Virus record (IMG/VR): IMGVR_UViG_3300020395_000035
Span: 1 to 39,087 of that record
DNA: 39,087 nt
Direction: 5' to 3' (one strand)
Origin: a virus
The position numbers and the translations under genes are program-made. The notes under the pieces were generated by a model. That model had not been told where the DNA came from, did no database searches, and saw only the letters and a program-made list of their open reading frames with translations. Shown piece by piece: positions 6,702-36,209 of this stretch (its first letter is position 1; the number at the start of each line of letters is the position of its first letter).

Positions 6702-9700
6702 ATGGGTATCGATACTACCGCCAAAAAAGTCCAAATTAATAAACTCGTAAGAAGTCAATTACCTTCTTTTGTAGCTGAGGATAATCCACAATTTGTGGAC
6801 TTTTTAAAACAATACTATGTTTCACAAGAATATCAAGGTGGACCAATTGATATTGCTACTAATTTTAATGAGTATCAAAAAGTAGATACATTTAATGAAG
6901 GTAGTGAACTTGTTGGATTTACTACTTGTACTAATGATATAAATTCTTACGATTCTACTATAGTCGTATCGTCAACAGAAGGTTGGCCTGCAGATTATGG
7001 ACTTTTGAAGATAGATGATGAAATAATTACATATACTAGTAAGACAGAGACCTCATTTGTGGGTTGTGTACGTGGTTTTTGTGGTGTAGATAATTTACAT
7101 GAACCAACAAATACGGAAAATTTAGTATTTTCTGAGTCAAATGCTGTAAAACATGAAGGTCTTTCAAAAGTTACTAATTTAAGTAACTTATTTTTACAAG
7201 AATTTTGGAAAAAGACAAAAAATTTATTTTTGCCAGGATTTGAAGACAGAGAATTACATAAAAAAGTCGATAAAGCTAACTTTTTGCGACAAGCAAAGGA
7301 TTTTTACGGATCAAAAGGTACTGATGAAGCAATAAAAATCTTATTTGGGGTTCTTTTTAACGATCAAGCCGAAGTAATAAAACCAATTGATTACTTATTT
7401 GCACCTTCAGATGCAGATTATGTCAAAACTTTCGATTTGGTAGCTGAAGTTATAAGTGGAAATCCTGATAATGTGGTGGGCCAAACATTATTCCAGACAG
7501 ATAAAACGGCAACTAGTGGATCAATATTTAATGTTCAATTTCTTCCTAAAGATGATAAGAATTATTATCTTATAAGTTTAAGTAGAGGATCAGTTGTTGG
7601 TGAATTTGAAGCTACAGGTGCCTCTAAACTCGTTGATAATGTTGCATATAATAGTAATACTGGTGTTGGTGCTACAGTTCTTACTGTAGATTCTACACTT
7701 GGATTCCCAGATAAGGGAACTGTTTATGTTGGAGCTGGTCTTACTGTAGGTATTGCAACTTATAGTAGTAAAACATCTACACAATTTTATGGCGTAACTG
7801 GCATATCTTCTTCATACACAGATGGTGATTTTGTTAGATCATCTAGAACAGTATATGCATATGAAGACGGAAATATTGAAAAACCAGTTTACTTTAGATT
7901 AACTAATGTGGTTACTGGTGCAAATATCGATGATATTGCACATACACATACAGAAGATATTGTATATCCTAGACAATTAGGATTGGTATCTGATCCAAAT
8001 ATCCATCAATTGAATAGTTGGATTCATAATGTTAAAATTAAGACTGATGTAGCTACATATCTTCAAGGAACAACTACATTGTCTAATGTGGATGATAGTA
8101 CATATAGTGGTGAAGTAAATACGAGTACACCACATGAGTTGCAAATAGGGGATGATGTAATAATATATGATATTCTTAGAAGTGCTGTAGGTACTCCATC
8201 TAACGTAACTGGTAAAGTTGATAGTATTCCAAGTGAAACTAAATTTACAATTACAAATAAAACAGGTACATTAGATCAAACAAAAACTTATCAAGTTGGA
8301 AGAAAGTTGAGATATGCTAGTAGTCTTAATGATAGATTAAATGTATCTAATTTTGTTGCTAATGTACAAAATACATATATTAGTGATGATAATAAAACTG
8401 CATATGTAACAACTGGTTCTTTGCCAGGTTATGAAATAAGTGCTGATCATCGATCACAAACATTTAATGGGTTTAGTGCAGTATCTAATGATACAATTAA
8501 TATACCAAATCATGATTTTAAAACTGGAGAATTAATACGATATAATCCATCAGAAGGTGATGTTGCTGTATCTGGACTCAGTACAGGATTTGCTTATGCA
8601 ATAATAAAAGAAGATGTCAATAATATTAAGTTATCAAGGAGTGTTCTTGATGCAGCTGCAAAAAAACATATTAATATTAATTCTACAGCAAGTTCTACTA
8701 CACATACAATAGTACCTGAAGAACTTAGTGGTAAGAATTTAAAACATCAGAATTTTATAAGAGAATTTCCAATTACTCCAGAAGTAAAAGTAGATACACG
8801 GGATATTAAAAATGAACCAATTGGAATGCTTGTTAATGGAGTAGAAATATTTTCTAATCAATCTGGTGATAATGTATTTTACGGGCCAATTGAACATATA
8901 GACGTTGAAAGAGGTGGTGATGATTATGATGTAATACAACCACCTAATATACACATTTCGGATAATGTAGGTACTGGTGCAACTGCTTATGCTGTTATTG
9001 AAGGTTCATTTAGAGGTATAGAAGTTATATCTGGTGGTTATGATATAAAAAATGTACCAAATATTTCTATAACTGGTGGTAATGGAAATGGAGCTACTGC
9101 ATATCCAAGATTAAAAGCTATTAGGAATGCTAGAACTTTTGACGCTAAGGTTGATGTAACTGTTAATACACAAGCTACTGCATCAGTTAGTATTTCTGGT
9201 GGAGTAATTCAAAATAGTGTTAATATAGTAAATGCTGGAACTGGATATATTACTGCACCAACAGTTACGGTTAGTACAACAAATCCACATACAGGTGCTG
9301 ATGCACAATTAACTGCAACCATCAATGCAAATGGTCAGGTAAGTGGTATTACGGTTGTTTCAGGCGGTTCTGGGTACGTCTCAGGACAGGTTACGTTGAC
9401 ACTTAGTGGTCCTGCTGGATTGATTACTTTTGCAGATGATCACTTATTCTTTGATGGTGAGGAAGTTGTATATGAAAAATCTAAGGATAATGCACAAATT
9501 CCTGGCTTGATTGATAAATCTGTTTATTATGTTCATAACATATCTGGCAATTCTAAACAAATTGCATTAATGAATACTTTTGAAAATGCAGTTTCTGGAA
9601 CTAATGCAGTTACAATTACAAATAAATCCATTGGAACACATAAAATACAATCGACTACATTTAGAAACGTTATTGATAAAATTGTAGTTGAAAATTCTGG

Positions 9701-12700
9701 ATTTGGATATTCTAATAGAAAAGTATTAATTAATTCTGATGCCCATCCTGCAGTAGATTATGCTAATAGGGCTAATATAAGATCTGGTGTAAGTATTGCA
9801 AATAATTATATTTTCCATAAAAATCATGGATTTAGAAATGGTGATCTTGTTGAATATAGTCATACGGGTACTGCAATAAGTGGATTATCTACTACAATAA
9901 AATATTTGATAATTAAATTGGATGAAGATAGATTCCGTCTTTGTAGTGCAGGTGATGATTATATTAATAATTTGTATTCGGAGGAGTTTGGAACTACATC
10001 AACTACAGTAAATTATAGTAAGGGTTTATATGTTGATATAAATTCCGTTGGTGCAGGTACTCATACATTTAAATATCCAGATATATCTGTTTCTATGGAT
10101 GTTATTTCTGGAGTTGGTAATACTGCCGTTTCATTCCCAGTAATAAGACCTATATGTAGAGGTGGTATAACAGATATTCATTTAACTAATACTGGAGTTG
10201 GATATGGGTCTTCAGATACTATTAATGCACATAGAAGACCATTAGTAACTATATCTAATGGTCTTGGTGGTTTAGTTGATGTTTCTATAACAGATGGTTT
10301 AATTAGTGATGCATTTACAAAAATTGATGGTAAAGGTTATGTTTCTCCTCCAGATTTAATTGTTGAAGGTCAGGGTAAATATGGAAAACTTGTATCTAAT
10401 GTGAATGCAGATGGTACTCTTGGTGCAGTTAATATTATTGATTCTGGTAAGGATTATACAACAATTCCAGATACAACAGTACGAGTTAAATCTCCTGGCG
10501 TTGGAGCTGTATTCAGAGCGGATTTGAGAAAGTGGAATATGACCACAATTGCTAGATATCAAGAATCAATCAATCCTTCTGATGATGGTATAATTTTACC
10601 AAGTCAAAATCCTGAATATGAATCAAAATTTACATCTGCTTATCTTCCTAGAAGATTGAGATTATTACTTGATGATAGTATTGAAACTAATTTTGATGAA
10701 AAAAATGTAGTAGAACATTCTCCTATTGTTGGATGGGCATATGATGGTTGTCCGATTTATGGACCATATGGATTTAATTCTCCTACTGGAGGTGCAGTTC
10801 GTAGATTAACATCTGGATATACTGCTGTAACTAGATCTAATAGACCTACAGAATTTCCAGCAGAATCTTTTGTTGAAGATTTTGATTATACTGGAAATGG
10901 AGATTTGGATGAAAATAATGGTAGATTTGGTAAAACGCCAGAATATCCTAATGGTGTATATGCATATTTCTGTACTATTTCAGATACCGATGGAAGTATA
11001 TCTCCATTTAATGGTACTAGAAAACCAGTATTTCCGTTTATATTGAATGGGTATCAATTTAATAGAGTTGATTCAAATGTTCAGGCTTTATCGTTACAAT
11101 CTACTTCAAAACTTAATAGTGGAAATATAATAAGAAATACTTTACCATATCGACTTGGATTTATTGGTTCTAATTATGATTATTTGGTTTCTAGTAATAT
11201 AGATGATACTGAATTTACTATTAGAAATACTAATATGACTGGTATTACTTCAATATCAGTTCATGAGCCAGGTGTTGATTATAAAGTGGGAGATAGATTA
11301 AAATTTGATAATAATAATACTGGTGGAGGTCATGGTGTTTCTGCAAAAGTAAAAACCATTTCTGGAAAAGGTATTGTAGATATAACTTATGCAAAGACTA
11401 CTGTTGAACATATTGAGTTTAATTATAAAAATGGATTAGGAGTAGGTATAGGTTCAACTGCACATGGATTACATGATGGCGATCTTGTTAATGTATCTGG
11501 TATAGGAACTGGTGAACTTAGATTTCTTGAAGGTCATAAAACTATTGGTGTATCATCAGTTACCTCTAAATTAAGTGTTGGAATATCTTCTATAGCTGGT
11601 CATGCCGATTCTACAGGCCGTACTGCTTTTATGTACCTTACCCAACAGACTTCATCACGTAATAGTAATGAAGATGATATACAAGTTGGAGATTGGTTAA
11701 TTATTGGTGATGCTGATGATTCTATAAAAGAAAAAGTTCAAGTAATAGAATATAATCAAAAATTTGATAGATATAAAATTAGAAGACAAACTGGTATTGG
11801 AAATACATGGTTTGAGGCAGGAACATCTGTTGTTGTTGATCAAAAGAAATTTACATTTAATGCTGGAATTGCAACTGATTTACGAATAGGTGATAATTAT
11901 ACAATAACAATTAATCCACAAAGTAGTATTGGTATTGGAACTGTAATAAAAACAGAAACTGGTCCTTATGGTAATGTTTCTGTTGCTAGAGTAGTTGCTA
12001 AGGATAATACTGTTTTATATGATAGGGATCCGCAAAATAGACCACATAATACTCAGCCAGGATCCAATTGTGATAATTCAATTACTTTTGAGAATCATGG
12101 ATTTATTACTGGTCAAAAATTACAATATTTTAAGAGTCCAACTGCAACTGCTGGATTGCAAGTATCTCAAAATGTTGGGATGGGTGCATCATTTAGTCTT
12201 ACTGATGGTCAATTTGTATATGCAGTTAAGAAAACTGATGATTTGTTTGGTATTCAAACAAGTAGAGTTGGTATAGGGTCTACATCAAAATCACTATATT
12301 TTGCAACTATAGGTGCAACTGGTGGAAATGTTACCGTTTATGATGATCATCAATTAAAAACTACTAATGAATCACATGTAGGATTTGTGGATAAATTTGA
12401 TGTAACTGTTGTCACATCACAACCTCATGGATTAAAAAATAATGATGAAGTAACTATTAGTATTTCTCCAGATCAAACTATTAATAAAAGTGTTGAATAT
12501 GATACTGTTGCCAGGAAAACTATAGTTGAACCTTTATATTTCCAAAGTTCCGATGTGTCAACTTCAAATAATACAATAAAAATAACAAATCATGGATATA
12601 AAGATGGTGATAAAGTTCTGTATAAGGCTGGTGCTACTGCAATAACACCTTTAGAGGATAGGGATGAATATTATGTTCAGAGGATATCTGATGATTATTT

Positions 12701-15700
12701 TAAATTATTCACTAATCGTAAAGATTCTATTAGTGATCCAAATGGATTTATTAATCTAACTAATATTGGATCTAGTGCAGGTGCAGGTAATCATCATAGA
12801 ATTTCTAGAATTAATCCTCCAATTAAGGCTTTATTAGGAGAAACTGTGGGATTTGCAGTTTCTGATTCATCTAATAGTAATTTTACATTAGAATTTTTTA
12901 GAGATAAGAATTTTACTAATAGATTTGATGGTGTTGGAATATCCACTGAAGTTGTAAGGAGTGGTGTACCTGGCACAACTGGTAGTTTAGTTAGTCTTAA
13001 ACTTACTAATAATGTACCTTTACCATTGTGGTATAAATTAACACCAAGTATAAAAAATAATGCTGGTGATTACATTGATGTTACAAAGAGGGATAGTTAT
13101 CCTGACACACAAGTTATTAATGGATCGAGAATATCATTAGAACTTAGTCGATATTCTGGTAATTTTGGAATTAAAACTACTGGTATGGGTAATACAGCTT
13201 TTAGTTATCAGATTGCAGAAAAACCAGAAAAAGAAAGATATAATACTGCTGGTGTAAGTACTTTTAGATATCTAACAAAATCAACTAACGCAAAAGGTGG
13301 AATTAATGAAATTAAAATTGATTTTCCTGGCAGAGAATATGTTAGAAATCCTGGCATAACCAGTATAAGATCAACTAATGGTAAAGATGCGGATGTTCGT
13401 ATTCTTGATGATAATGTTGGATTCCCAGCTTTCACTGAAGTTACTAAAATTGGATATGATTATCCGACAGATAAAACATTAAGTCCTAGAGCAGATACTT
13501 ATGCAAATGTGAGTGTAGTTAATAATTATGTAATTGGTCATATTGGTATAGTTACTGCAGGTAAAAATTATAGTACTGCACCTGATTTATTTTTACCAGA
13601 TAGGCCATTTGCAAAAACAAGAGTTTATTTAGAGGGTACATCAATCGGATCTGTTGAAATCTTAGAAGATAGTTTAACTGGATTTAGTAATGTTCCAAAT
13701 CCACCAAGAATTATTGCAATTAACAATACAAATGGTGTTGGTGTTGTAACTGCTAGGTGTATTGAAGCTAATGGAGATCCTAATACATCACCCTTAATTG
13801 AAATAAAGAAACCTTTTGGTGGTTGGAGAGCTGAAAATCATAGATTGGGTACTAATTTCCCATTTGAAGTTGGAGATCAAGTTTTTGTTGAAAACGTTGA
13901 AGTATTTCAAAATGATAATCCAATATTTTACAATGAAGGAAGAGTGATTGGTTATAATTCTGATATGTATGATTATCAGTATTTTACTATTACTGAGAGA
14001 AATATTGCTAATTCTTGGATAAAATATTCTATTGCAGGTATTGGTACTTGGGGTGGAACTTTTGATCCAGTCAATAGTGCTGGTAGAGTTATTAAGAAAG
14101 AAGATTTACCATCATTTAACGTTAGATTTGATCATAGAGATTTTATTGAAGGAGAACATGTTACATTTGGTGGCGGATCAGCTGAAGGTGTAATTGTAAT
14201 GAATGAAGGTTGGGATAGAGCTACAAATTCATTTAGATTAAGAGGATTGACAAGAAATCCGTTTAAAGGTGATGTTATTGTCGGTGGAATATCTAATGCT
14301 CAAGGTAAAGTTATTAAATCGTCTTATTATGAGAGATATTTTACAATATCACATCAATCAGATAGAGTTAAAGGATTCCAAAAAAATACTGGTAAATTAA
14401 ATAACGATTTCCAAAAAATACAGGATAGTGATTATTATCAAAATTTCTCATATTCAATTCAAAGTGAAGTTCAGGAAAAAGATTTCAGTGATGCTGTAGA
14501 TAGTATTGTTCATCCTACTGGATATAAGAATTTCTCAGATTTAGTTATAAAGTCACTTCCAACATCTGGTAGTGGTAGGAGTACTGATTTATCTCCAAGG
14601 CCTCCACAAAGTGATACTGGATTACAAGTAAGTATTGATAATATACAATCATTCTATGTTAAGAATGACTATGATTTTGCTACAGAAACAACTATTGCTA
14701 GTGGATATTCTAAGTTTATTACATTCCAAAATAAGAAACTCACTGATCTTTTAAGTATTAGTTCTGCTAAAGTTAATTTAATTGATGATCTATCTAATCA
14801 ATTTGATGGAAAAACTGAAACATTCTCTGGTATTCATAAGTTTGTTAGAGATGAAATTAGAACAGCAGGTGCTGGAAGTACAGGCGCTATTAATATAATA
14901 ACAGGAGCTCCTGTTGGAAGTAATGGAACTATTATTGTTACTAATGGTACAACTTATGAACCTACTACTGGTGTATTAACGATTAAAGCTGATGCTCATG
15001 GACTTTCTAATGGCGCTACTGTTAGTATACTTGATAATTCTTTAACATTCACATGTGATAAAGATAATCATACTACAGAACATAGATATCCAAGAACATC
15101 AGATCCTGCTTCAACTTCAAATAGTAAATTTAATTGGGGTGTATTAACAGTCGCTAATAAGACTACGAATACATTTGAATTAACTATTAATACACCAGTT
15201 ATTGGTGGTAAAGTTGTCGGATTGAGTACTTTTGTACTCACTACAGAAAATGGTGGTAATAATGTATTTCATAATATAATAGATCCTAGTAATACCGATA
15301 CTATAGCGATAGGAAAATCAGTATTTACTGCAATCAATCATGGATTACAAACTGGGGAAGCTATAACATATGTGCCTGGTTCTAATACAAGTATTGGTAT
15401 TAATCCAACTGCATTCCGTGTGGCTACTACTGATATAACAATCGGTACAGAACAGATTGAAATTATTGGTCATGGTTTAAGTACCGCAGATACATTAACA
15501 TATACTGCAGGTTCTACTGCAATTGGTGGTCTTACCAATTCTACAACTTATTCTGTTATTAGAGTTAATAATAATACAATTAAACTTGCAACAAATACTT
15601 CCAATGCAAATGGTGGTACTGCAATTAATTTAACATCTGTGGGTGCTGGTATTCATGTATTCACTACTGCATCTAATCCTACGATGCCTACTAGTGCATA

Positions 15701-18700
15701 TGTATTTAAAACTTCTGATAATTCATTTAAGGTAATTCGTGATCCTCTTACTCCAGTAGATTATGCCTATACTTTACGTAATGTAGGAACTGGAACATAT
15801 CATGCATTTAATCCTACATCTCCAGAAAGTAGAACGTTAATTGAAATTGATGGTGTTATTCAATCTCCACTTTATAAGAAAGCTATTAGTGTTGCATTTG
15901 CTAGTAATGTTAGTAATTCAGCAACTTCCGTTACACTTGCTGGTATTACATCTATAAGAGCTAATGATATTATTAGTGTAGGTAATGAATTGATGAGGAT
16001 TAAAGGAATTGGTATTGGAGGAGCTAATGTATGTACTGTAGAACGTGGATTCTTAGGTACATCTGCAGCTGCACATACTACTAGTTCAACATGTACAATA
16101 AAAGATGGTGATTTTAATATTGTTAATGGTATACTTCATCTTACAACTCCTCCATATGGCCCATCAGGATCTGCAGGTATTAGTACATCATCAACATTCC
16201 ATGGCAGAATATTCAATAGGAAAGATGTAACTAGAAACTTTATTTTTGATGATGTATCACATAAATTTACTGGAAATGTTGCGACTGGAAGAACATTCAC
16301 ATTAACTCAAAATGATGAAGATGTAACTGGTATTGTTACTACAGTATCTGGTACTGGTGGTGCTGGTCAGGTTATTAATAATGGTATTATCTTGATTAAT
16401 AACATATTCCAAAGACCAGATATTGATTATGTAATGACACCAAGATCTTATGATCCTAATGTTGGTATTGGTGGATCAATTTCATTTACTGGAATCACTA
16501 CAAATTATACTATCCCTAGAGGTGGTAAAGTAGAAGATTTTGATGTTAATTTTGGTAAGGGATATCAACCAAGGAGAGCTGCTGCCGCTACTGCAGTTAT
16601 TAATGCTGCAGGTTCAATACAAAGTTTAACTATGACTGGTGCTGGTCGTGGATATTTCTCAGGATCAGTTAATGTTGAGGTATTTAATCCATTAGGTGTT
16701 GGTTCGGCTGCTGTTCTACAGGCAACAGTTGGTACTGGAAATAGTGCTGGAATGATTACTGGTATTACTACTATAAGTGGTGGTACTGGATATTCATCAT
16801 CAGATCCTGCATATAATACACATGTTCCTGTAGTTTCTACTGATGGAACAACATTAACAATTAATGTTGGGACTGCACTTCCTAAAGGAAGATATCAACA
16901 TAGTTTTGTACGTGATAGTGGTACTCATACGTTTGTGAGTGGAGTTACAAATGCTATTACTGCAAGTAATGGTGCAAGTGGAAACTTTACTGCTGCATCT
17001 GGTACAACTTATAATCCTTTAACTGGAAATTTAGTATTAACTATTGGGTCACATAGTTTAACAACAAGTAATAAAGTTACACTTGCAGATGGTGCAGTTA
17101 CATTTACATGTGATGCTGACAATCATGCAACTAATCATTCATATCCTAGATCAAGTGATCCTGCATCAGGACAAGCACTTACTATTACTGCTAAGACTGG
17201 TACAACAATTACAGTTAATGTTGGTGCAGTTAAAGGTGCTAATTCAGTAGTTACTGATACAACAGCTGTTGCTGGTTCTGGTTCTACTGCTGCATTTACT
17301 CCTAGTACTGCAGTATATGATCCAAACTCTGGAGATTTGGTACTTACTAAGGCATCTGGTACTTGGACTCATGCAACTAATGCAGGAACTCTTACACCAA
17401 TAAGTGGTACTGCATACAATCCATCAACAGGTATCTTAACTGTTAAGGCTACAGGTCATGGATTGGTTAATAATGATTTAATTAATATTCTTGAAGGTGG
17501 AATACCATTAACATGTGCAAAAGATAGTAATGCAACTACACATTATTATCCAAGAAAGACAGATCCTATTTTTGGAAAATGGATAAAGATTACTAAGGTT
17601 GATAATGATACATTCACAGTTTGGGTTGGTGGTTCTACTTATACAGGTGCTCATACATTTGTAACAGGACAAAGTGCTAATAAGATTAGAAAAGCTACGT
17701 CATATGTAAGACTTAATGATAATTCCTTCGTATTTACATGTACTAAGGATGGTAATTCAACTCAACATTCATATCCACGTACAGGAATTACAGTACCACC
17801 AATAATTAAAGTTGGTATTGCAACAGGATATAGTGACTTGGTATTTACTGGTGGTACTGGTCAAGGATTTAAAGCTAGTGTTGTAGTTGGTTCTGGTGGA
17901 ACTGTTATTGATTATGATATAACTGATAGAGGTTATGGTTATAAGAATGGTGAAGTATTGACTGTACAAGGTATACCATTTGAGCCAGGTATTTCAACAA
18001 GTTCACTTACATTTACAATAAACAAAACAATTACTGATAAATTTGCTGGATTTAGTTTTGGTCAATTAGTAACTCTTGATAATTTTGCTGATCAATTCGA
18101 TAATGATACCAAATCATTCTTACTCACCAAACTAAATGTTAATACTGGTGTTAAGGATATTGTTACTATAGTTTCATTAGATACATCTATTGATGCTGAT
18201 AATAACTTATTAATATTCTTGAATGATGTGTTACAAAAGCCAGGAGAAAACTATAGTCTTGAAGGTGGTACAACATTAAACTTTGTTGAAGCTCCTAAAG
18301 AAGGAAGTAAGTTACAAGTTTTATTCTATAGAGGTGGTAATGCTGATATTGAAGCATTAAACCCCGTAAAAACCTTTAAAGTTGGCGATAAAGTTCAATT
18401 ACTTCGAGGTGGTGATAGGCCTAGACAATCTGATCGTGTTGTATCTGATATTTCAGATGTAAGTAAGATAGAAACACCACTTTATGGTGGTGGTGGAATT
18501 AGTACTAATAGTAGTTTGGTTAGAGTAGCTGCTTGGAAGAAACAAGAAAGTGATCTTGTTGTTGATGGACTTCCTATTTCCAAAGAAAGATCTAATTATA
18601 CTGGTAAATTTAGACCAGTTTCAAATATTATTCAAAATGTTGCAACGAATAGTGGAACAATATATCTTGATAGTGGATGGCCTATATTCAGTGCATATGA

Positions 18701-20603: not shown

Positions 20604-20622
20604 ACTAATCAGTAATTAAACA

Positions 20623-20630
20623 CATAAATA
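20623..20630 (+). promoter_or_regulatory. Late promoter variant CATAAATA
   Basis: This matches the T4 late -10 at seven of eight positions. It lies in the 47-nt gap between the giant gene and gp8, 20 nt before the gp8 ATG. It would give gp8 and downstream genes a fresh late start after a 13.9-kb gene. Confidence 0.7.
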
Positions 20631-20650
20631 AACAAAAATAGTCTAGTAAG

Positions 20651-22231
20651 ATGCCTGCGATTATTTCAGATCAATTTAGAATATTAAATGCTGCGAATTT
20701 TGTCGCTGGTATATCTGGTGGCACTGATAATTATTATACATTTCTTGGTTTTTCTAATTATCAAGATGTTGAACAAGGATATGGAACTTTAGATTGGAAT
20801 ACTAATACTCCTGCACCTAAAGATGGATTTAAAGAATCCAATGATGTGTGGGATACCATGCTTGGTATGAAGAAGATGGCTTCTGATGATATACAGAGGA
20901 TGGTTAAAAAGTATACATGGACTTCAGGAACAGTATATGAAATGTATAAACATTCATATACAAGAGAGAATCAAAGTCCTAAAACTTCTTCAACTAATCT
21001 TTATGATGCACAATATTATGTTGTAAATAGTGATCTTAAAGTTTATATTTGTATTAATAATGGTCAAACTCCAGATAACCCACAAGGTAGACAGTCACTT
21101 GACGAACCAGATTTTGTTGATTTAGAACCAAGAGCTGCTGGTACTAGTGGTGATGGTTATATTTGGAAGTATCTTTATACTATTAAACCAAAAGAGATTA
21201 TAAAATTTGATTCAATTGATTATATGCCTGTTCCTACATCTTGGGGAACTGGTGAAAGTGGTGATATAAAAGATAATGCAATAAGTGGAAAGATTGAAAC
21301 TGCAGTTGTAATTAATGGTGGTGGTGGATATCAACCTATTGGTACTACTTTTAACAATATTCCCATACTTGGAGATGGTACTGGTGGTAGAGCTTCAGTA
21401 ACTGTTAATTCTCAAGGTAAAGTTTCAGATATAACTGTTACTAATGGTGGTACTGGATATAGTAGAGGAGTTGTTGAATTTTATCCTGGCGCTCCAGGCG
21501 CTGAAACTGGTGGGCCAATTACTGGATTATCTGCTGTTGGTGTAGGAACAACTTCTATTGCAGAATTTGAAGTAGTTATTCCACCTCCAGGCGGACATGG
21601 GTATGATATTTATCGTGAACTTGGTGCTTTTAGAGTATTAATGTATGCAAGATTTGAGAATAGTACTACAAATCCTGATTTTATTGTAGGAAATGACTTT
21701 GCTCAAGTTGGTGTTGTTAAAAATCCAACAAATATTGCAGGTTCTTTATTAACTTCAGATTCTGCAGTTCCATTAACTTCACTTAAATTGAAGACAATTA
21801 GTGGAGGAAATATAGCTGATACCATCTATACTGTTGATACTCCAGTTACACAAACTATAGGTGTTGGATCTACGGCTATTGGATATGTTGCTAGTTGGGA
21901 TTCTACTAGTGCAGTATTAAAATTATATACACCTACTGGTATTGGATCAACTACCACTGGATTTAGGATGGTTGATTTTGATGGTACATCAAATCAATTA
22001 ACCATTTCTGGACAAACATCTGGTAATGCTTTATCGATAGATGATGCATTTACTGGTAATTCTGTGACTATAAATGGAGCTAGTGTTTCATTAGGTCAAG
22101 CCTTTACTAAAGGTGTTGCACCACCAGAAGTTAAAAAATATTCTGGTGAAGTCTTATACATAGATAACAGGGCCGCAATACAACGTAGTGCTACCCAGAA
22201 AGAAGATGTAAAAATCGTATTAGAGTTCTAA
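20651..22231 (+). CDS. 8: Baseplate wedge subunit gp8
   Basis: gp8 is a dimeric baseplate wedge protein that binds gp7 and gp10 in T4. The protein starts MPAIISDQFRILNAANFVAG, then YYTFLGFSNYQDVEQGYGTL and DDIQRMVKKYTWTSGTVYEM, typical of marine T4-like gp8. It is 526 aa against 334 in T4. Much of the excess is a GGxGY beta-repeat insert at about residues 211-290 (VVINGGGGYQPIGTT, then ITVTNGGTGYSRGVVEFYPG). The C-terminal part includes PPEVKKYSGEVLYIDNRAAI, the conserved gp8 end. It has its own late promoter at 20623. The next gene starts 4 nt after its stop. Confidence 0.85.
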   Translation: MPAIISDQFRILNAANFVAGISGGTDNYYTFLGFSNYQDVEQGYGTLDWNTNTPAPKDGFKESNDVWDTMLGMKKMASDDIQRMVKKYTWTSGTVYEMYKHSYTRENQSPKTSSTNLYDAQYYVVNSDLKVYICINNGQTPDNPQGRQSLDEPDFVDLEPRAAGTSGDGYIWKYLYTIKPKEIIKFDSIDYMPVPTSWGTGESGDIKDNAISGKIETAVVINGGGGYQPIGTTFNNIPILGDGTGGRASVTVNSQGKVSDITVTNGGTGYSRGVVEFYPGAPGAETGGPITGLSAVGVGTTSIAEFEVVIPPPGGHGYDIYRELGAFRVLMYARFENSTTNPDFIVGNDFAQVGVVKNPTNIAGSLLTSDSAVPLTSLKLKTISGGNIADTIYTVDTPVTQTIGVGSTAIGYVASWDSTSAVLKLYTPTGIGSTTTGFRMVDFDGTSNQLTISGQTSGNALSIDDAFTGNSVTINGASVSLGQAFTKGVAPPEVKKYSGEVLYIDNRAAIQRSATQKEDVKIVLEF

Positions 22232-22235
22232 GAAA

Positions 22236-25200: not shown

Positions 25201-28200
25201 TTTCTGATTTTATTGATGTTAGACCTAGAGTTTCATCTACACCTGTAAGTACATCAATTTCACCATTTGATTATGATAATCGCACATTTGCTGTGGGTGG
25301 AGTTAAACCATCTATTATTGTTGGTGATGAGTCAATGTCTCTTACATATTCACATTATCTCTCAAGAATTGATAAAATATATCTTGATAAAGATGGTAAT
25401 TTTGAATTAAAGAAAGGTGCTTCAGCTCCTGTAGAGGATGTAGTACCTCCAGCAGATCCAGCTGGATCATTCATAGTTGCTACTATTAGTAATAATCCAT
25501 ATATACGTCGAGCTGGTAGTTCTAAAGTACTTCTTGCTAGACATAAAAGATATACTATGTCGGATATTGCTAGATTGGAAAATAGATTGAAGAATGTAGA
25601 ATTTTATACACAATTATCATTATTAGAAACAGATACTTCTAGTCTCACTATTGTAGATGCTAAGACTGGAGATAATAGATTTAAGTCTGGATTTTTTGTT
25701 GATAATTTTAGAAGTCATGGAGCTCATGCTGTAGGACATCCAAACTTTAGAGCTTCTATCGATAAAGCTAGAGGGGAATTGAGACCAACTCATTATACTC
25801 ATGGTCTTGATCTTCTTCTCGGTTCTGAACAAGTTATTGGTATTGGAACAAATTCCGATCCAAATGCAGATCTAACACAAGTTAGTGATTTACAATCAAA
25901 TGCATTAAAACGTACTGGAGATTTAATAACATTAGATTATACTTCAGAAACATATATCGAACAAAAATTTGCGACTAGATGGGAAAACGTTAATCCATTT
26001 GCATCAATTACATGGGTTGGTGGAGTAGAGTTGAATCCAAGTAGTGATGTTTGGCTTGATGAAAAAAGACTTAAAACTAATGTTGTTGAAGTTGAAGGTG
26101 ATTATCAAAAAACATTAGATAATTTGAAAATAGATCCAAATACTGGATTTAGTCCTGCTGATTGGGGGGAATGGGAAACGGTATGGTCATCAACTAGTAG
26201 TGATACTCAACATAAGGGAACAACAAATAGTGGTTTTAAACAAACTGGTAGGAGTCGAGGAACTCAGAATAATGATTGGGGAACGTTTACTACATCTAGA
26301 GCTACAATTACAGATACATTTGAAGAAACTATTACAGTAGATACTGGAATGTCAAGAAGTGGTATTCAATTTAAGGTAGATGCTAGAATAGATGAACAAA
26401 GTCTTGGAGATAAACTTGTTAGTCGTGAGACAATTCCTTATATGAGATCTAGGAATATTGAATTTGTTGCAACTAGAATACAACCAGGCACTAGATTCTA
26501 TCCATTTTTTGATGGGCAAAATGTTGAACAATACATAACTCCTAAATTAATTGAAATTAGTATGGATAATGGAGTATTCCAAGTTGGTGAACAAGTTGTT
26601 GGAACTTCTGGAGATTCAATAAAAAATTCTTCAGCACCAAGAATTAGTTTTAGAGTTGCACAACCAGATCATAAATTTGGATCATATAATGATCCAAGAA
26701 TTACTTATGCAGTAAATCCATATGCATCTACTACAGGAATAAGTTCTAGTTATTCTGCAACTAGTAGTGTTCTTAATATGGATACTGGATCATTACAACA
26801 AAAAGTTCTGGGTGCTTATTTTGGTAGAATTTCTAAGGATATGAAACTCTTAGGTCTAACAAGTGGTGCTGAAGCTACTGTAACTGATACCAGATTGATT
26901 ACTGATGAAAAAGGTGCTTTGATTGGATCATTGTTTGTTCCTAATCCTAGTCATATATCAGCTCCAGAATTTACAACAGGAACTAAGACATTTAGATTGA
27001 GTAGTAGTATTACAGATTCTCGCAGTCCACTTGATAAACCATCTGTATGTCAAGCTAATTTCCGTGCTGAAGGAACTACTGATACGGTTCAAGAAGATAT
27101 TATGATGATTAGAAATGCTGAGGTATCACAAAGAACTGTAACTGATGATAAAACAACAACTTCTAGTAGTTCTAGAACATACACGACAGAATCTTTTGAA
27201 GAGAGAGTTAGATTTGAAGAGGATGATAATGATCCATTAGCACAATCATTTGAAGTTAAAGAAACAAATGGTATATTCCTTGAGTCTGTTGATATTTGGT
27301 TTAAGACAAAAGATGTGAAAGTTCCAGTAACTCTTCAAATAAGAACAATGCGTACTGGATTACCAACACAAGGTATTGTATCATTTGGTGAAGTTACATT
27401 AGATCCAGAATTTGTCAATATATCCGAAACAGGTGTTGATGAATCTTATACTAGATTTACTTTCCCATCACCAGTATTCCTTGAAGGACAATCTAAAGAT
27501 TATGCAATTGTATTATTAGCACAATCTATTAATTATCATGTTTATATTGCTAGAATGTCAGAAGAAGATTTGAGAGATATAAATCTTGAAGAAAGTGAAA
27601 GAAGAATTGTTTCTTCTCAACCACATCTAGGATCATTCTTTAAATCACAGAATGGTGCAACATGGACTCCAAGCCAATATGAAGATCTTAAATTTAGACT
27701 TAACAGATGTAAGTTTGTTTCTGGCCCAGGCATATTAAAACTTTATAATCCAGAATTAGGTGTTGGTGAAATGGAAAGACCTATTCTTAGAAGAAATCCA
27801 TTATTATTAAAATCTAATGAAGTAAATATCAAATGTGCAGGTAATGTAACTGGAATTAATGTTGGTGATTTATTGTCTCAGACTAATAATACTAGTGCTA
27901 ATGGTAAGGTAACAGCATTGCTTGGACCTCTTGCAACGGCAACTCATCAAACTAATTCTGGTGTTGGACTTGTAAATGCTACGTATACTAGCAGACCTCT
28001 TACCAGCATTACTGGTAATGGTAGTGGTGGAGTTGCTACTATAGTTATTAGTGGAACTCCTTCAACTGTAGGTAGTATAACTGTTACAACAGCTGGTTCT
28101 GGATACAAAACTGGTGATGTTCTTGGTGCAACTGTGGGTGATACTGGTACTGGTTTGAGATTTACAGTTGGTGCAGTATCTAATATTAATAGTTTACTTT

Positions 28201-29672
28201 TACATGAAGTTCAAGGAACATTTGATACTACTAATACATTAACTAAAGCGGGTTCAGCAATCTCTAATAGTGTACCATCTACTGTTAATACAGTATCTTC
28301 TGATAAAGATGGATTGCATATTAAAGTCTTCCATAGAAATCATGGTATGCACGCTGCAAATAATAGAGTTACTATTTCTGATGCAGTAGGTATCAATACA
28401 GTAACAACATTAAGTCAAAAATATTCAAATAGTGCAACTTCTGCTATTAAAGTTGATAGTGTAGCTAATTTGGGAGATTTTGAAGGTCTTGCGGTTAGTA
28501 CTTCAAACCCAGGCTATATTCAAATTGGTGATGAAGTTATTAAGTATACAGGAACTAATTCCAGTACTACTCCAAAACAACTTACTGGTATTACAAGAGC
28601 TATAGATAATAGTGTTGCTGCAACACATGATGCTGCTACTAAGGTACGCAAATATCAAACTGCAGGTATTTCATTGAGGAGAATTAACAAAACTCATTTA
28701 TTATCACAATCTAGTATTGCACCCGATCTTGATAGTTATCATATTAAAATTGATGTTAGTGCTAATGGTAATGGTACAACCAGAGATGGAAGTAGTTCTA
28801 CTATACCATTAAGAATTGATAAAACATTATTAGATGGTGGTGAACTTACAAGAGCAACTCAAAATATTCAATTTGAAGCAATAACACCACTGGTAGAATT
28901 CTTAACTCCTGTTGATACTCAGTTAAGTGGTAGAGTTAGAACAGTTACTGGAACTAGTGCTAATGGTACTGAAGTTTCATTTGCAGATGAAGGATTCTCT
29001 GATATTGCATTGAATGGTGTTAATTACTTTGACTCTCCTAGAATAATTGCTTCTAAGATTAATGAACAAAATAATTTAACTGCATTGCCTGGTAGTAAAT
29101 CATTTACTACAGAGTTAGTATTAACATCCAATGATCAACATGTATCACCTATGATTGATACGGATAGATTTGGTATAATTACTACTACAAATAGAGTAGA
29201 TAATCCAATAACAGATTATAAGGGTGATAGTAGAGTTAATAGTTTAGTTAACGATCCAACCTCTGCGATTTATATAACTAAACGTGTTTCCTTAGAAAAT
29301 CCTGCAACTTCTTTACAAACTAGATTTGCAGCCTTCAATCATGTTAGTAATGATATTAGAGTATTATATCGTATACTTAGAGCTGATGTTCCATCTAATG
29401 AAGAACCATTTATATTATTCCCTGGCTTTAGTAATTTAAAAGATACAACTGGTGATGGATTTGGAGATGAACTACGAAATGCTGCAAATAGTGATGGTAC
29501 ACCAGATAGGAAAGTTCCTTCTTCTAGAACAATAGATGAATTTAGAGACTATCAATTTACTGCAAATGATTTACCAGAATTCCACGGATTCCAAATTAAA
29601 GTTATATTGACATCTACTAATCAAGCAATTGTACCTCGTATTAAAGATTTTAGAACAATAGCATTAGCATAA
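22236..29672 (+). CDS. Giant DUF4815-like baseplate/fibre structural protein (2478 aa)
   Basis: The N-terminus reads LNVSPYFDDFNEDKNFKRVL and then FKPGSPVQARELTQLQTILQ with QMEKFGQHFFKEGSMVIPGG. This is the start typical of DUF4815-type virion proteins of marine myoviruses. It occupies the place of T4 gp9-gp12 and is probably a baseplate-peripheral or proximal fibre protein. A helical segment MSDIARLENRLKNVEFYTQL lies near 1108. A region near 1300-1420 is rich in Ser, Thr and Trp. A GGxGY module lies at about 1915-1975 and an IxIGDEVIKYTG module at about 2066-2145. Near the C-terminus, DTTGDGFGDE resembles a calcium-binding loop. The stop overlaps the next start (TAATG). Its function in adsorption is inferred. 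Confidence 0.8.
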   Translation: MPQETNLNVSPYFDDFNEDKNFKRVLFKPGSPVQARELTQLQTILQNQMEKFGQHFFKEGSMVIPGGIGYDAKYYAVELEDTFLGIPISEYLDKLVGKTIKGETSGVEAEVVNYILSTTSDRGHNTLYIKYSKAGDDFKTVEFVDGENFVVPDSDIEYGNSRIIATNPFATAIPLNATSIGSACTIADGVYFIRGYFLNITKQTIIIDQYSNSPSGRIGLYLDENIVTAFSDSTLFDNAAGFSNFAAPGADRFQITTTLIKKDLDDISDANFVELLRLNQGAKEKMVEKTDYNILSDEFARRTYDESGNYYVKPFALNVRESLNDRQGNNGVYFDNQKTQQGNTPSSDTMIYQLEPGKAYVRGYEVTRTGNTFLDVEKPREVRELKKQSFVFDKTSSVMLNRVYGAPNTTLGTNATVSLRDQRTGGTHANAAGSEIGVARVYDFKLEAERYSDASTKYELFLWDIQTYTSLTLSSSLTAIEGSLIEGANTGARGYLKSAASGASISLTSTNGTFITNEAIIVNGVKSNQTIATVTEYSFDDVKSVYQSYTLDSTTYKFNADTDLSRFLFPAPRGTEFTINHTNGVVSVGGQRFSSGVKIGDIVRYQKTGESDPTYNRVTAVASTGATITIAALAADVAGVCQKELVSSTGTSTRFVIVRPRLLNPSNTGLISDLPEPFISKVDLSASEILVRKNYTFTVSSNTATITLTEDNEYFEPFDEEKYNVSFSDGSIYSLRSGNLSFNATYKTLTLKFAGISNSTKGVLVATIKKTIIKSQNKTLNRCNTITINKTQGVTVAQNGVTANSVYGNRVEDKEICLYVPDGVRVHAIFESSTAGDPSLPTVTLTNRSADLTDTIQGEVLIGNTSGAAARVVNSATATVDVVYVNDLEFIKDETVTFQSSGIDGLVSSTVDGDSDIVDNFQFDNGQRPELYDFARIIRKDDSSTPSKRLTVVFDNYTLDGEVGDFATVNSYSADNFEFDIPTFSGIPVSDFIDVRPRVSSTPVSTSISPFDYDNRTFAVGGVKPSIIVGDESMSLTYSHYLSRIDKIYLDKDGNFELKKGASAPVEDVVPPADPAGSFIVATISNNPYIRRAGSSKVLLARHKRYTMSDIARLENRLKNVEFYTQLSLLETDTSSLTIVDAKTGDNRFKSGFFVDNFRSHGAHAVGHPNFRASIDKARGELRPTHYTHGLDLLLGSEQVIGIGTNSDPNADLTQVSDLQSNALKRTGDLITLDYTSETYIEQKFATRWENVNPFASITWVGGVELNPSSDVWLDEKRLKTNVVEVEGDYQKTLDNLKIDPNTGFSPADWGEWETVWSSTSSDTQHKGTTNSGFKQTGRSRGTQNNDWGTFTTSRATITDTFEETITVDTGMSRSGIQFKVDARIDEQSLGDKLVSRETIPYMRSRNIEFVATRIQPGTRFYPFFDGQNVEQYITPKLIEISMDNGVFQVGEQVVGTSGDSIKNSSAPRISFRVAQPDHKFGSYNDPRITYAVNPYASTTGISSSYSATSSVLNMDTGSLQQKVLGAYFGRISKDMKLLGLTSGAEATVTDTRLITDEKGALIGSLFVPNPSHISAPEFTTGTKTFRLSSSITDSRSPLDKPSVCQANFRAEGTTDTVQEDIMMIRNAEVSQRTVTDDKTTTSSSSRTYTTESFEERVRFEEDDNDPLAQSFEVKETNGIFLESVDIWFKTKDVKVPVTLQIRTMRTGLPTQGIVSFGEVTLDPEFVNISETGVDESYTRFTFPSPVFLEGQSKDYAIVLLAQSINYHVYIARMSEEDLRDINLEESERRIVSSQPHLGSFFKSQNGATWTPSQYEDLKFRLNRCKFVSGPGILKLYNPELGVGEMERPILRRNPLLLKSNEVNIKCAGNVTGINVGDLLSQTNNTSANGKVTALLGPLATATHQTNSGVGLVNATYTSRPLTSITGNGSGGVATIVISGTPSTVGSITVTTAGSGYKTGDVLGATVGDTGTGLRFTVGAVSNINSLLLHEVQGTFDTTNTLTKAGSAISNSVPSTVNTVSSDKDGLHIKVFHRNHGMHAANNRVTISDAVGINTVTTLSQKYSNSATSAIKVDSVANLGDFEGLAVSTSNPGYIQIGDEVIKYTGTNSSTTPKQLTGITRAIDNSVAATHDAATKVRKYQTAGISLRRINKTHLLSQSSIAPDLDSYHIKIDVSANGNGTTRDGSSSTIPLRIDKTLLDGGELTRATQNIQFEAITPLVEFLTPVDTQLSGRVRTVTGTSANGTEVSFADEGFSDIALNGVNYFDSPRIIASKINEQNNLTALPGSKSFTTELVLTSNDQHVSPMIDTDRFGIITTTNRVDNPITDYKGDSRVNSLVNDPTSAIYITKRVSLENPATSLQTRFAAFNHVSNDIRVLYRILRADVPSNEEPFILFPGFSNLKDTTGDGFGDELRNAANSDGTPDRKVPSSRTIDEFRDYQFTANDLPEFHGFQIKVILTSTNQAIVPRIKDFRTIALA

Positions 29673-29875: not shown

Positions 29876-29878
29876 TTA

Positions 29879-29886
29879 GATAAATA
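29879..29886 (+). promoter_or_regulatory. Late promoter variant GATAAATA
   Basis: This matches the T4 late -10 at seven of eight positions. It lies just after the stop of the 67-aa gene and 27 nt before the ATG at 29914, in a 38-nt gap. It starts the fibre gene unit. Confidence 0.75.
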
Positions 29887-29913
29887 TATCTAGACGAAAC
29901 TACATCTTAAATA

Positions 29914-30255
29914 ATGGCTGTATATGTTGTAAATTTAGTAATAGATCAAGGGACGGATTTCACACAAACATTCAATCTTGAGAGTGATGCATCTGATTCT
30001 GCTTTAGATCTTACTGGATATACTGGGGCAGCACAACTTCGTAAACATGCTTCTAGTAAGACGAAGTATGATTTTACAGTAACTTTTACAGATACCTCTG
30101 CTGGTATAGTAAAAATAACTATGACTGATGCAGTAACAGCTGGTATTAAAGCTGGTCGTTACATTTATGATGTTCTCATTACTGATTCTGGTGGATTGAA
30201 AACAAGGATCGTAGAAGGATCCGCTCTAGTTAGAGAAGGAGCTACAAGGATTTAA
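29914..30255 (+). CDS. Virion structural protein, beta-sandwich type (113 aa)
   Basis: The protein starts MAVYVVNLVIDQGTDFTQTF and contains LDLTGYTGAAQLRKH, then KITMTDAVTAGIKAGRYIYD and a C-terminal TRIVEGSALVREGATRI. This pattern (a DFT-type start, LTGYT..A..R, a T..I.AG.Y.YDV turn and a V.EG strand) resembles small BppU N-terminal-like or Ig-like tail proteins found next to fibre genes. It likely attaches or caps the fibre. It is the first gene after the late promoter at 29879. The next gene starts 2 nt after the stop. Confidence 0.7.
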   Translation: MAVYVVNLVIDQGTDFTQTFNLESDASDSALDLTGYTGAAQLRKHASSKTKYDFTVTFTDTSAGIVKITMTDAVTAGIKAGRYIYDVLITDSGGLKTRIVEGSALVREGATRI

Positions 30256-30257
30256 CT

Positions 30258-30512
30258 ATGGGTATAAAAGTAAGTGTTAACAATGATTCTAATGTTAAAG
30301 TTAGAGTTGGTCAACAAACTGGTGTAAAAGTTCCAACAACATCTTCTGGTGCTAGTGGTGGAACATTAGGCAGTCTTGGGGATACTGATGTTACTTCTCT
30401 AGAAAATGGTGCAGTTTTAGTTTATGATGCCACAACCAGTAACTGGGTTGCAACTTTAGAATTGACACCAACAAATACAAAAAATTTAGACGTTAATGGA
30501 GGTTCGTTCTAA
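30258..30512 (+). CDS. Small fibre-associated protein (84 aa)
   Basis: The protein starts MGIKVSVNNDSNVKVRVGQQ. A Gly/Ser/Thr linker follows, then a segment GSLGDTDVTSLENGAVLVYD with TSNWVATLEL. The LGDTD..L.NG.VLVYD...NWVA pattern is common in the attachment parts of marine phage tail fibres. It overlaps the long fibre gene by 1 nt (TAATG), so it is probably a fibre connector or part of a split fibre. Confidence 0.7.
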   Translation: MGIKVSVNNDSNVKVRVGQQTGVKVPTTSSGASGGTLGSLGDTDVTSLENGAVLVYDATTSNWVATLELTPTNTKNLDVNGGSF

Positions 30513-33433: not shown

Positions 33434-33635
33434 CGAAATTAATTTTAACATTCTACTCGAATTAACTCTTGCAAAAGTTAATGCATTAACAAAAGAAAAC
33501 TTATTACTTGAGGCTAAATCAAGAACACTTCAAGAAACAATAGATCAATTAGAGACTGATTATGGTGAAGCTAAAAAAGCTCTTGCACAACAGTCAGTCA
33601 ATAAAACGACCAAACCCAAACCGATAAATAAGTAA
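33420..33635 (+). CDS. Small coiled-coil protein (71 aa)
   Basis: GTG 33420 is preferred over GTG 33390. It gives a 14-nt overlap with the fibre gene and a start MAHSNEINFNILLELTLAKV that fits the helical body, whereas the longer form adds a frame shadow. Residues 15-55 are a strong coiled coil (LTKENLLLEAKSRTLQETID). The C-terminal tail is basic and proline-rich (TTKPKPINK). It may be a fibre assembly helper or oligomerisation factor. The last codons contain the late promoter for gp13. Confidence 0.65.
   Translation: MAHSNEINFNILLELTLAKVNALTKENLLLEAKSRTLQETIDQLETDYGEAKKALAQQSVNKTTKPKPINK
33623..33630 (+). promoter_or_regulatory. Late promoter variant GATAAATA
   Basis: This late -10-like octamer (seven of eight matches) lies inside the end of the coiled-coil gene, 21 nt before the gp13 ATG. 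It would start the neck-terminase unit. Confidence 0.75.
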
Positions 33636-33651
33636 AAGCTAGTGTATATTC

Positions 33652-34776
33652 ATGGCCAAACCTAGTTCACGACAAGAATTAATTGATTACTGTTTAAGAC
33701 AGTTAGGTGAACCTGTATTGGAAATTAATGTTGATGAAGATCAAATTGAAGATGCAGTAGATGATGCAGTTCAATTTTTTCATGAAAGACATTTTGATGG
33801 TGTTGAGAAAATGTATCTCAAACACAAACTCAGTCAGGATATGATTGATGCTGCTAGAGAACAGACTGTAGCAACAACTGGTATATCATCTAGTGTTTTT
33901 AATGGTAGTTCAGCAGCTACTGTAAGTGTTAGTGCAAATAATGTTGTTATACCTAATCATGGATTAGTTACTGGTTCACCAATAGAATATAGTTTTGGAC
34001 CAGGCAATACTACTATTGCAATTGCAAGTGCGACTTTAAATAGTGTTGGTGTTACTACTGCATTAGGAATTGGTACTGATAGTCAAAAACTTTGGGCTAT
34101 TGCAGATAATAGAAACGAGATTAGATTTGCTGCAACTGCTGCTGATGCAACAAATGGTACTGCACTTGATATAACTGCAGTAGGTGCTGGTGCAACACAC
34201 TTTATAAGTACAAGAACAGAATTTACAGAACAGAGAAATTATATTGAAATACCAGATCATATTATAGGAATTAATGGTATTTTCAGATTTGATGATAATA
34301 CTATTTCCCAGAATATGTTCAGTATATCTTATCAGATATTCTTAAATGATGTTTATAATTTTAGTTCTATTGAACTACTTAACTATTCAATGGTTAAACA
34401 ATATCTTGAGACCATTCAATTCTTAATTAGTCCAGATAAAAAGATTAGATATAATAAGAGAGGAAATAGACTTTATATTGATATGAATTGGAAAGATGCA
34501 ACACCAGACCAATTCTTAGTTATTGATTGTTACCGAGTGTTAGATCCTAGTGAAAATACAAAAGTTTTTAATGATAGTTTCTTGAAGAGGTATATAACTT
34601 CCTTAATTAAGAAACAATGGGGTCAGAATCTCACTAAATTCCAAGGAGTTAAACTTCCTGGCGGTGTTGAATTAAATGGTCGTCAGATATATGAAGATGC
34701 TAATACTGAATTAGCTGAGTTAAGACAAAGAATGTCAACTGATTACGAACTTCCACCTCTGGACTTGATAGGCTAA
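33652..34776 (+). CDS. 13: Neck protein gp13
   Basis: gp13 forms the neck with gp14 and closes the packaged head so the tail can attach. The protein starts MAKPSSRQELIDYCLRQLGE, then VDEDQIEDAVDDAVQFFHER, the conserved gp13 N-terminus. The C-terminal part has NMFSISYQIFLNDVYNFSS, then RYITSLIKKQWGQNLTKFQG and PGGVELNGRQIYEDA, also gp13-like. The 374 aa exceed T4 gp13 (309 aa), largely because of an insert at about residues 77-186 with PNHGLVTGSPIEYSFG and AVGAGATHFIS. This is the NHG module also found in the giant protein. The stop overlaps the gp14 start (TAATG). Confidence 0.9.
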   Translation: MAKPSSRQELIDYCLRQLGEPVLEINVDEDQIEDAVDDAVQFFHERHFDGVEKMYLKHKLSQDMIDAAREQTVATTGISSSVFNGSSAATVSVSANNVVIPNHGLVTGSPIEYSFGPGNTTIAIASATLNSVGVTTALGIGTDSQKLWAIADNRNEIRFAATAADATNGTALDITAVGAGATHFISTRTEFTEQRNYIEIPDHIIGINGIFRFDDNTISQNMFSISYQIFLNDVYNFSSIELLNYSMVKQYLETIQFLISPDKKIRYNKRGNRLYIDMNWKDATPDQFLVIDCYRVLDPSENTKVFNDSFLKRYITSLIKKQWGQNLTKFQGVKLPGGVELNGRQIYEDANTELAELRQRMSTDYELPPLDLIG

Positions 34777-36209
34777 TGGCTTTAAATCCTTTCTTTCTAC
34801 AAGGATCTGCATCTGAGCAGAGATTAGTTCAAGATCTTATCAATGAACAATTGAAGATTTATGGTGTAGAAGTATATTACATGCCTAGAAAGTTTATAGG
34901 TAGTGATACAATAATGCGAGAAAATATTGTTGCGAAATTTGATGATAGTTTTGCATTTGAAGCTTATGTTCAGAATTATGAAGGGTTTGCTGGTTCTGGA
35001 GATTTGATGACAAAGTTTGGTGTAAGAACCACTGATGAATTAACCCTTGTTATCTCTAAGGAAAGGTATGAAGATTTTATATCTAGTTTTTATACAGATG
35101 GTGATGGTGATACTAAATTAACATCTAGACCAAAAGAAGGAGATTTAATATATTTTCCATTATCAGATAGTCTTTTTGAGATTAAGTTTGTAGAACATGA
35201 ACAACCTTTCTACCAACTTGGAAAACTTTATATGTATGAACTTAAATGTGAATTGTTTGAAGTTAGTGATGAAATTATTGATACTGGTGTCGTTGATATT
35301 GATGATAATCTTGAGGATGAAGGATATATTGCAACATTAACTCTTGCTGGATATGGTGCAACTGCATTATATTATACTGGTATAAGCACTAATAATGGTG
35401 TGAATACAATTACATTAATTAATGATGGTTTTGGATATTCAAGTCCACCTGTTGTTGCAATTAGTACTTCACCACATGGAGGTTCAGCTGCAAATGCAAC
35501 TGCTGTAGCTATTACTACTGCAATAGGTGCTGGATCTACTTCATTCTCGGTTAAAGAGATTGTAATAACAAATAGTGGATATGGTTATACCCAATCACCT
35601 ACTGTTACCATAAGTGGTGCTGGTGGTTCTGGTGCTATTGCAAGAGCTGGTATTGGTACTAATGTTGTTAGGATATTAAGAGATGGTACTCAGGCTGGTG
35701 GTAGTAAGTATGCACATACACCTACTGTTGCAATTAGTACTTCTCCAGTTGGTGTTGCGTCTGCAAATGCAACCGCTGTTGCAACAGTAGGTGCTGCTGG
35801 AACTGTAATGGATGTTAGATTTACTAATGCTGGTTTTGGATATACAGTTGCTCCTATTGTAACTATTCAGTCGCCAGGATCTGTAGGTATGGGAACTGGT
35901 AATTTCTTCTTGAATGAAATGATTAGAGGTCAAAGTTCACTTACTACAGCAAGAGTTAAGAATTGGGATGCTGATACAAATATACTTAAAATTGGGCATG
36001 TTGCAGGTAATTTTGCATTGAATGAAGTTATTGTTGGATCTGCAACTACTGGTGAATTCCCAGGCATGGGATCAACTGCAACTTATACAATATATAAGAT
36101 TGGATTGGATGATCAATATGATGCATTTGCAGAAAATATTGTCATAGAAAATGAAGCCGATAGTGGTTTGGTTGATTTTTCTGAGACAAATCCATTTGGT
36201 TCTTTCTAA
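34776..36209 (+). CDS. 14: Neck protein gp14
   Basis: gp14 is the second neck protein, partner of gp13. The N-terminus reads MALNPFFLQGSASEQRLVQD, then YGVEVYYMPRKFIGSDTIMR and GDLIYFPLSDSLFEIKFVEH, all strongly gp14-like. The C-terminus ends LVDFSETNPFGSF, also conserved. It is 477 aa against 256 in T4. The extra length is an insert at about residues 187-372 made of GxGY...P.V.IS repeats (INDGFGYSSPPVVAIS, ITNSGYGYTQSPTVTIS, FTNAGFGYTVAPIVTI). The insert replaces no core region. It is coupled to gp13. Confidence 0.9.
   Translation: MALNPFFLQGSASEQRLVQDLINEQLKIYGVEVYYMPRKFIGSDTIMRENIVAKFDDSFAFEAYVQNYEGFAGSGDLMTKFGVRTTDELTLVISKERYEDFISSFYTDGDGDTKLTSRPKEGDLIYFPLSDSLFEIKFVEHEQPFYQLGKLYMYELKCELFEVSDEIIDTGVVDIDDNLEDEGYIATLTLAGYGATALYYTGISTNNGVNTITLINDGFGYSSPPVVAISTSPHGGSAANATAVAITTAIGAGSTSFSVKEIVITNSGYGYTQSPTVTISGAGGSGAIARAGIGTNVVRILRDGTQAGGSKYAHTPTVAISTSPVGVASANATAVATVGAAGTVMDVRFTNAGFGYTVAPIVTIQSPGSVGMGTGNFFLNEMIRGQSSLTTARVKNWDADTNILKIGHVAGNFALNEVIVGSATTGEFPGMGSTATYTIYKIGLDDQYDAFAENIVIENEADSGLVDFSETNPFGSF

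Follow-up and report, generated by a model that had tools for sequence, protein, structure and literature searches.

GxGY repeats shared by the neck and baseplate of a T4-like phage, and their probable mobility as an exposed beta module

The window analysed here is the whole of IMGVR_UViG_3300020395_000035, a 39-kb contig (39,087 nt) of an uncultivated virus that carries a baseplate-neck module of T4-like phage type. In order, its genes encode gp25, gp6, a giant of 4633 aa in the gp7 position, then gp8, the DUF4815/VrlC-type protein of 2478 aa, a fibre, gp13 to gp15 and finally the small terminase (Table 1). Since the best cultured gp8 match found was that of Synechococcus phage S-CAM9 (Kanaloavirus, Kyanoviridae; 70% identity), the contig is taken to be that of a marine cyanophage-type virus, the host being an inference. 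A small ORF of 99 aa at 3995-4294 has a SET-domain-like sequence (GQGIFATENI...NHSDDPNC...) and matches unnamed PHROGs only.

Window gp14 is a member of PF11649/phrog_460 by its core and by its position between gp13 and gp15: residues 2-172 align with residues 26-184 of T4 gp14 (hhalign, 99.8%). Window gp8 belongs with T4 gp8 (PF09215), from which it retains the N-terminal domain, the GDGYxWxYL motif and the C-terminal SGExxYxxNR segment, and pieces of it match 1n7z in a phmmer search. The cores of both proteins are homologous to those of T4 gp14 and gp8 (PDB 9lu4-9lu7 and 9mkb; 1n7z) but, unlike the window proteins, T4 gp14 and gp8 are without the GxGY repeat.

Table 1. Genes, GxGY repeat units and other shared modules of the window, with the evidence for each (HMM scores in bits; aa, residues of the protein concerned)
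Feature	Position	Strand	Evidence
Giant at gp7 position between gp6 and gp8, 4633 aa, YHYH domain	6702..20603	+	phrog_2885 baseplate wedge E=0; PF14240
Giant, first GxGY cluster, aa 730-767, 819-865, 865-910	8889..9431	+	HMM 7.8, 18.0, 9.9
Giant, second GxGY cluster, aa 982-1005, 1136-1191, 1225-1270	9645..10511	+	HMM 5.6, 18.5, 10.1; hhalign to gp14 7e-12
Giant, region of scattered GxGY units (next four lines)	16584..20018	+	
Giant, scattered GxGY unit	16584-16715	+	HMM 7.5
Giant, scattered GxGY unit, weak	17859-17948	+	HMM 4.7
Giant, scattered GxGY unit	18780-18875	+	HMM 24.6
Giant, scattered GxGY unit	19905-20018	+	HMM 18.1
gp8 baseplate wedge protein, 526 aa	20651..22231	+	phrog_438 1e-155; PF09215 6e-14
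gp8 GxGY insert, aa 208-284, two GxGY sites	21272..21502	+	HMM 6.0 and 8.4; hhalign to gp14 array 1.8e-6
DUF4815/VrlC-type structural protein, 2478 aa	22236..29672	+	PF16075 5e-64; phrog_358 E=0
DUF4815 protein, single weak GxGY unit or unit pair, aa 1905-1990	27948..28205	+	hhalign to gp14 array 7.6e-7, to gp8 insert 2.6e-8
gp13, different module of 'HGLxxGDxVxY' type, aa 75-206	33874..34269	+	Giant aa 2863-2983 blastp 2e-5; HMM giant 24.9, 13.9
gp14 neck protein (head closure), 477 aa	34776..36209	+	PF11649 2e-34; phrog_460 1e-121
gp14 GxGY array, four units, aa 183-376	35322..35903	+	HMM; AF2 pLDDT mostly 75-90, aa 200-365
gp14 unit 1	35340-35528	+	HMM 44.5
gp14 unit 2	35517-35666	+	HMM 42.7
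gp14 unit 3	35697-35804	+	HMM 19.8
gp14 unit 4	35790-35927	+	HMM 42.5
gp14 second small module (GExVxG...SGxTAxVKxW), aa 375-430, after array	35898..36065	+	
gp15 C-terminal part, third module, aa 236-315	37218..37457	+	Giant aa 3058-3130 28.2 bits, 9e-8; DUF4815 11.8 bits

An earlier note on this DNA had attributed GxGY-type repeats in gp14, gp8, the giant and the DUF4815 protein to one domain family of the neck and baseplate. The motifs that it quoted are all present (VNAGTGYITAPTVTVS at 9237, VTNGGTGYSRG at 21449, TTAGSGYKTGDV at 28095 and INDGFGYSSPPVVAIS at 35427), and the counts of GxGY compare with the expectation from composition as 11 versus 1.9 in the giant, 4 versus 0.38 in gp8, 3 versus 0.28 in gp14 and 2 versus 0.45 in the DUF4815 protein. 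An HMM of the single unit, trained on gp14 units only and used with a cut-off of at least 5 bits, found nine copies in the giant, four in gp14 and two in gp8; the DUF4815 protein reached 3.4 bits. In profile-profile comparisons (hhalign; E values in Table 1) the gp14 array matched the giant at 97.5%, the DUF4815 protein at 91.7% and the gp8 insert at 89.8%; the gp8 insert matched the DUF4815 protein at 95.2% and, by blastp, residues 834-904 of the giant (E=0.003). The profile search that the note had proposed hence gives one profile shared by the units of all four proteins.

It could be objected that Gly/Thr-rich beta segments resemble each other by chance or low complexity, with no common family behind them: the window proteins are rich in Gly, Thr and Ser, and lone GxGY motifs do arise by chance in their cores. 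This is extremely improbable. HMM matches are nearly absent from shuffled sequences (0-0.02 per protein at the same cut-off, 100 shuffles for each), the hhalign E values are 1e-6 to 1e-12 where two stretches of window protein used as controls gave 0.08-0.23 (0.3% and 0.7%), and the predicted order of strands is common to the gp14 and gp8 units. The motif by itself does overcount the units, four of its sites being non-repeat: that at gp8 residue 167, also found in T4 gp8 (residue 183), that at gp8 residue 315, which falls outside the insert, and those at residue 67 of the DUF4815 protein and residue 507 of the fibre.

As to the extent of the repeat, the range of 9216-35880 given previously has to be widened slightly, the copies of the giant beginning at about 8889 (and running to 20018), and what had been called repeats in the DUF4815 protein is a unit that is indeed present, but single and weak, with no array. 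In gp14 the GxGY of the third unit is degenerate (GGSKY), the unit being still detected by the HMM. That the inserts make up much of the excess length over the T4 proteins holds well for gp14, where the array represents 194 of the 221 residues gained over the 256-aa homologue (88%). It holds in part for gp8: the insert accounts for some 77 of the 192 residues gained over the 334-aa T4 protein, i.e. about 40%. The place of this insert relative to T4 gp8 is approximate, since hhalign spans the N-terminal 195 residues only and the MAFFT global alignment scatters the C-terminal half of T4 gp8.

The repeat is predicted to be a self-contained, glycine-rich beta module of ~45 aa (about 41-50). In the models, each unit would consist of a 'PxVxI' strand, a glycine loop, an 'AxAxxV' strand, a turn and a 'VxxIxVTN' strand, after which the GxGY turn leads on to the following unit. 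The array is the confident part of the AlphaFold model of gp14, where it forms repeated three-strand units with a dip in pLDDT near residue 300. The gp8 model has a mean pLDDT of 33 and its sole well-predicted stretch, residues 213-279, lies within the insert; there the strands follow one another in the same predicted order as in the gp14 array, in what is a low-confidence model. Foldseek searches with the two models had at least 8 of the top-50 viral targets in common. From strand order and common targets, the gp14 and gp8 units likely adopt the same fold, and the single family put forward for neck and baseplate is borne out by sequence profiles and predicted secondary structure together.

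Searches for a described relative were negative. In Pfam and NCBIfam, neither the 36 gp14 arrays nor the repeat consensus gave a convincing match (best for the consensus, DUF4232 with 14.9 bits, below the cut-off of 27), and none of the Pfam Ig-type domains was matched. Against the PDB, the best E value was 0.9 for a profile search with the repeat and an unconvincing 0.035 for a sequence search with the consensus, while the fold search returned only T4 gp14 below E 0.2 and no relative of the array. A literature search by motif name found nothing relevant. In the array, Gly, Tyr and Pro positions are invariant; beyond these structural residues, the repeat has no conserved pattern of a ligand site.

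The repeat is mobile, as can be seen from its number and place in gp14. Four units are present in all of the 80 closest homologues, a count that speaks for these relatives and not for cyanophages at large. Units at the same position in different proteins are 0.40-0.52 identical, those at different positions 0.27-0.32, i.e. the unit positions are evidently inherited. The 657-aa gp14 of S-CAM9 (L163:32889-34862) has eight units, twice the usual four, those of S-RIM2, S-RIM8 and ACG-2014d have two each, and those of T4 and phiM12 have none. The 291-aa gp14 of S-WAM1 is also without repeat, its sequence being continuous across both insertion regions. These regions are distinct: in the two-unit phages the repeats lie within the second small module, between 'GE.V.GD' and 'AEVKSW', a segment uninterrupted in S-WAM1, and in the window clade the four units are upstream of this module, not inside it. 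The simplest reading of these sequences is that insertion occurred independently at two points of the C-terminal arm of gp14, or that the array was relocated. The array also diverges faster than the core (mean pairwise identity of 49% versus 73%). The two insertion points with the empty S-WAM1 site, the copy numbers of 0, 2, 4 and 8 and the faster divergence indirectly support the view that the array occupies an exposed, insertion-tolerant site.

The GxGY repeat is one of at least three modules that the neck proteins have in common with the baseplate giants; those of gp13 and gp15 had escaped the earlier note. Several copies of the 'HGLxxGDxVxY' module of gp13 are found in the giant. At 374 aa, against a median of 281 aa in relatives, window gp13 is long and most relatives are without the module, which suggests a recent gain. 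Since gp13, gp14 and gp15 each carry a different shared module, all three neck proteins have received modules. The tail sheath of S-WAM1 (L253:27354-30152) has two copies of the gp15-type module near its N-terminus; this protein, a match of the fold search, was rejected as a carrier of the repeat, no GxGY unit being present.

These modules bear on another explanation, namely that the repeats are structural braces which pack on neighbouring proteins (the gp14 arm on gp15, gp8 on the wedge giants), making the joints of neck-tail and baseplate stiffer. The arm of T4 gp14 (residues 178-256) lacks order until the tail is joined, when it makes contact with gp15 at the C-terminal part of the latter (PMC12270204). 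It is this arm that the array occupies, the C-terminal region of window gp15 has an added module too, and the constancy of four units in the closest 80 relatives is what would be expected were length important. The modules are nevertheless unpaired: at 56 loci where gp13, gp14 and gp15 are all complete and gp14 invariably has four units, the gp15 module occurs in 22 and the gp13 module in one, which makes obligate pairing with the gp14 array unlikely. A match of the array to the gp15 module was rejected for this lack of co-occurrence. Moreover, S-WAM1 manages without the array, a fixed interface is disfavoured by the two insertion points and by copy numbers of 2, 4 or 8, and divergence is faster in the array than in the core. 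We consider a bracing role to be rather unlikely.

The repeat extends well beyond the neck and baseplate. Tail fibres, baseplate wedges, a hub-lysozyme and virion structural proteins figure in the 21 PHROG families matched by the gp14 arrays. The profile of the 36 arrays being too variable for a scan of genome contigs, a hand-made repeat consensus was searched in bacterial and archaeal genomes, which gave at least 368 confirmed loci and favours the most consensus-like examples. Among the matches listed, many of the cellular carriers are large proteins whose N-terminus looks, by eye, like an export signal, and examples have PilY1, bacterial Ig, multicopper oxidase, GH64 plus dockerin or Tad domains. 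In a Pseudomonas abietaniphila prophage, two near-consensus units lie in the middle of the major tail protein (L248:5656-6393), the gene of which is followed by a long ORF of tape-measure size. Given this wide spread in phage and cellular proteins, the repeat is no speciality of neck and baseplate, so that the family as first proposed is borne out but too narrowly drawn. It looks like a promiscuous, general-purpose bolt-on surface module.

Such promiscuity over unrelated proteins, with the fast divergence of the array, is also what one would expect of a neutral spacer, i.e. of tolerated glycine-rich units that recombination spreads and that lengthen proteins without selected function. The constancy of four units in gp14 with conservation specific to each position, and the invariant Gly, Tyr and Pro, argue against this account and make it improbable.

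We favour, at a probability of roughly 0.5 for the reading as a whole, a mobile beta module that decorates neck and baseplate and adheres weakly. That the module is mobile and exposed is very probable; a weak, multivalent adhesive role, proposed by analogy, is more tentative and stands somewhat below an even chance. The repeat would move between genes and be tolerated wherever the recipient exposes a loop or an arm: in this phage, it would have been gained in the C-terminal arm of gp14, at one site of gp8, repeatedly in the giant and once in the DUF4815 protein. The outside of the neck and baseplate would then bear several dozen copies per virion, 24 from gp14 alone if this is a hexamer as in T4. 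Rather than binding a specific receptor, this decoration might keep the virion on the cell envelope or extracellular polymer, or let it slide there. The glycan binding or protection suggested in the note is not favoured by any of these observations in particular. A counter-point is that the T4 arm truly contacts gp15, so that repeats there could be internal struts. Exposure of the units in the assembled virion is something that we infer. In S-SCSM1, which has a four-unit gp14 as well as units in its giant and gp8, mass spectrometry of purified virions detected 45 phage proteins (PMC9602691). The S-SCSM1 record tags the giant, gp8, VrlC, gp13, gp14 and gp15 as virion proteins.

Two known systems are comparable. 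Phage Ig-like domains, the subject of Fraser et al. in 2006, are said to be small promiscuous beta domains in unrelated virion proteins, tail-tube proteins included, for which weak surface binding was reportedly proposed. The likeness resides in the promiscuous insertion into unrelated virion proteins (here the 21 PHROG families and the prophage major tail protein). The present repeat differs in having no Pfam Ig match, in its tandem units of about 41-50 aa and in being found also within neck gp14, baseplate gp8 and giants. The neck passage structures of Lactococcus phages are likewise a variable neck decoration diversified through domain exchange, and some have carbohydrate-binding domains (PMC10684548, which also cites Fraser et al.). 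However, those structures consist of neck proteins of their own; here it is the conserved head-closure gp14 that contains the module, with no recognisable carbohydrate-binding domain. We would only tentatively go as far as to propose an undescribed family, distributed over exported proteins of bacteria, archaea and tailed phages and repeatedly captured by gp14 at two sites, which in T4-like cyanophages would make the neck a ring of weak adhesins.

A widespread repeat with neither a Pfam/NCBIfam model nor a solved structure is thereby identified, and the neck proteins of abundant marine phages prove to be hot spots for the exchange of several kinds of surface modules. With a domain model of the repeat, cryo-EM and binding tests would have a concrete target. 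It would also clean up annotations. Window gp14 is a full member of phrog_460/PF11649 (head closure Hc2), and the PHROG profile already includes repeat sequence; in neither annotation is the array set off as a domain of its own, and unrelated proteins match phrog_460 through the repeat alone. The protein at the gp7 position of HTVC008M (YP_007517921; L172:11436-14486) is annotated 'head closure Hc2' in its RefSeq record, and phrog_3465, labelled in the same way, covers the whole of this baseplate protein (residues 1-1016). In both cases the label, probably an error, is likely due to the repeat held in common with gp14.
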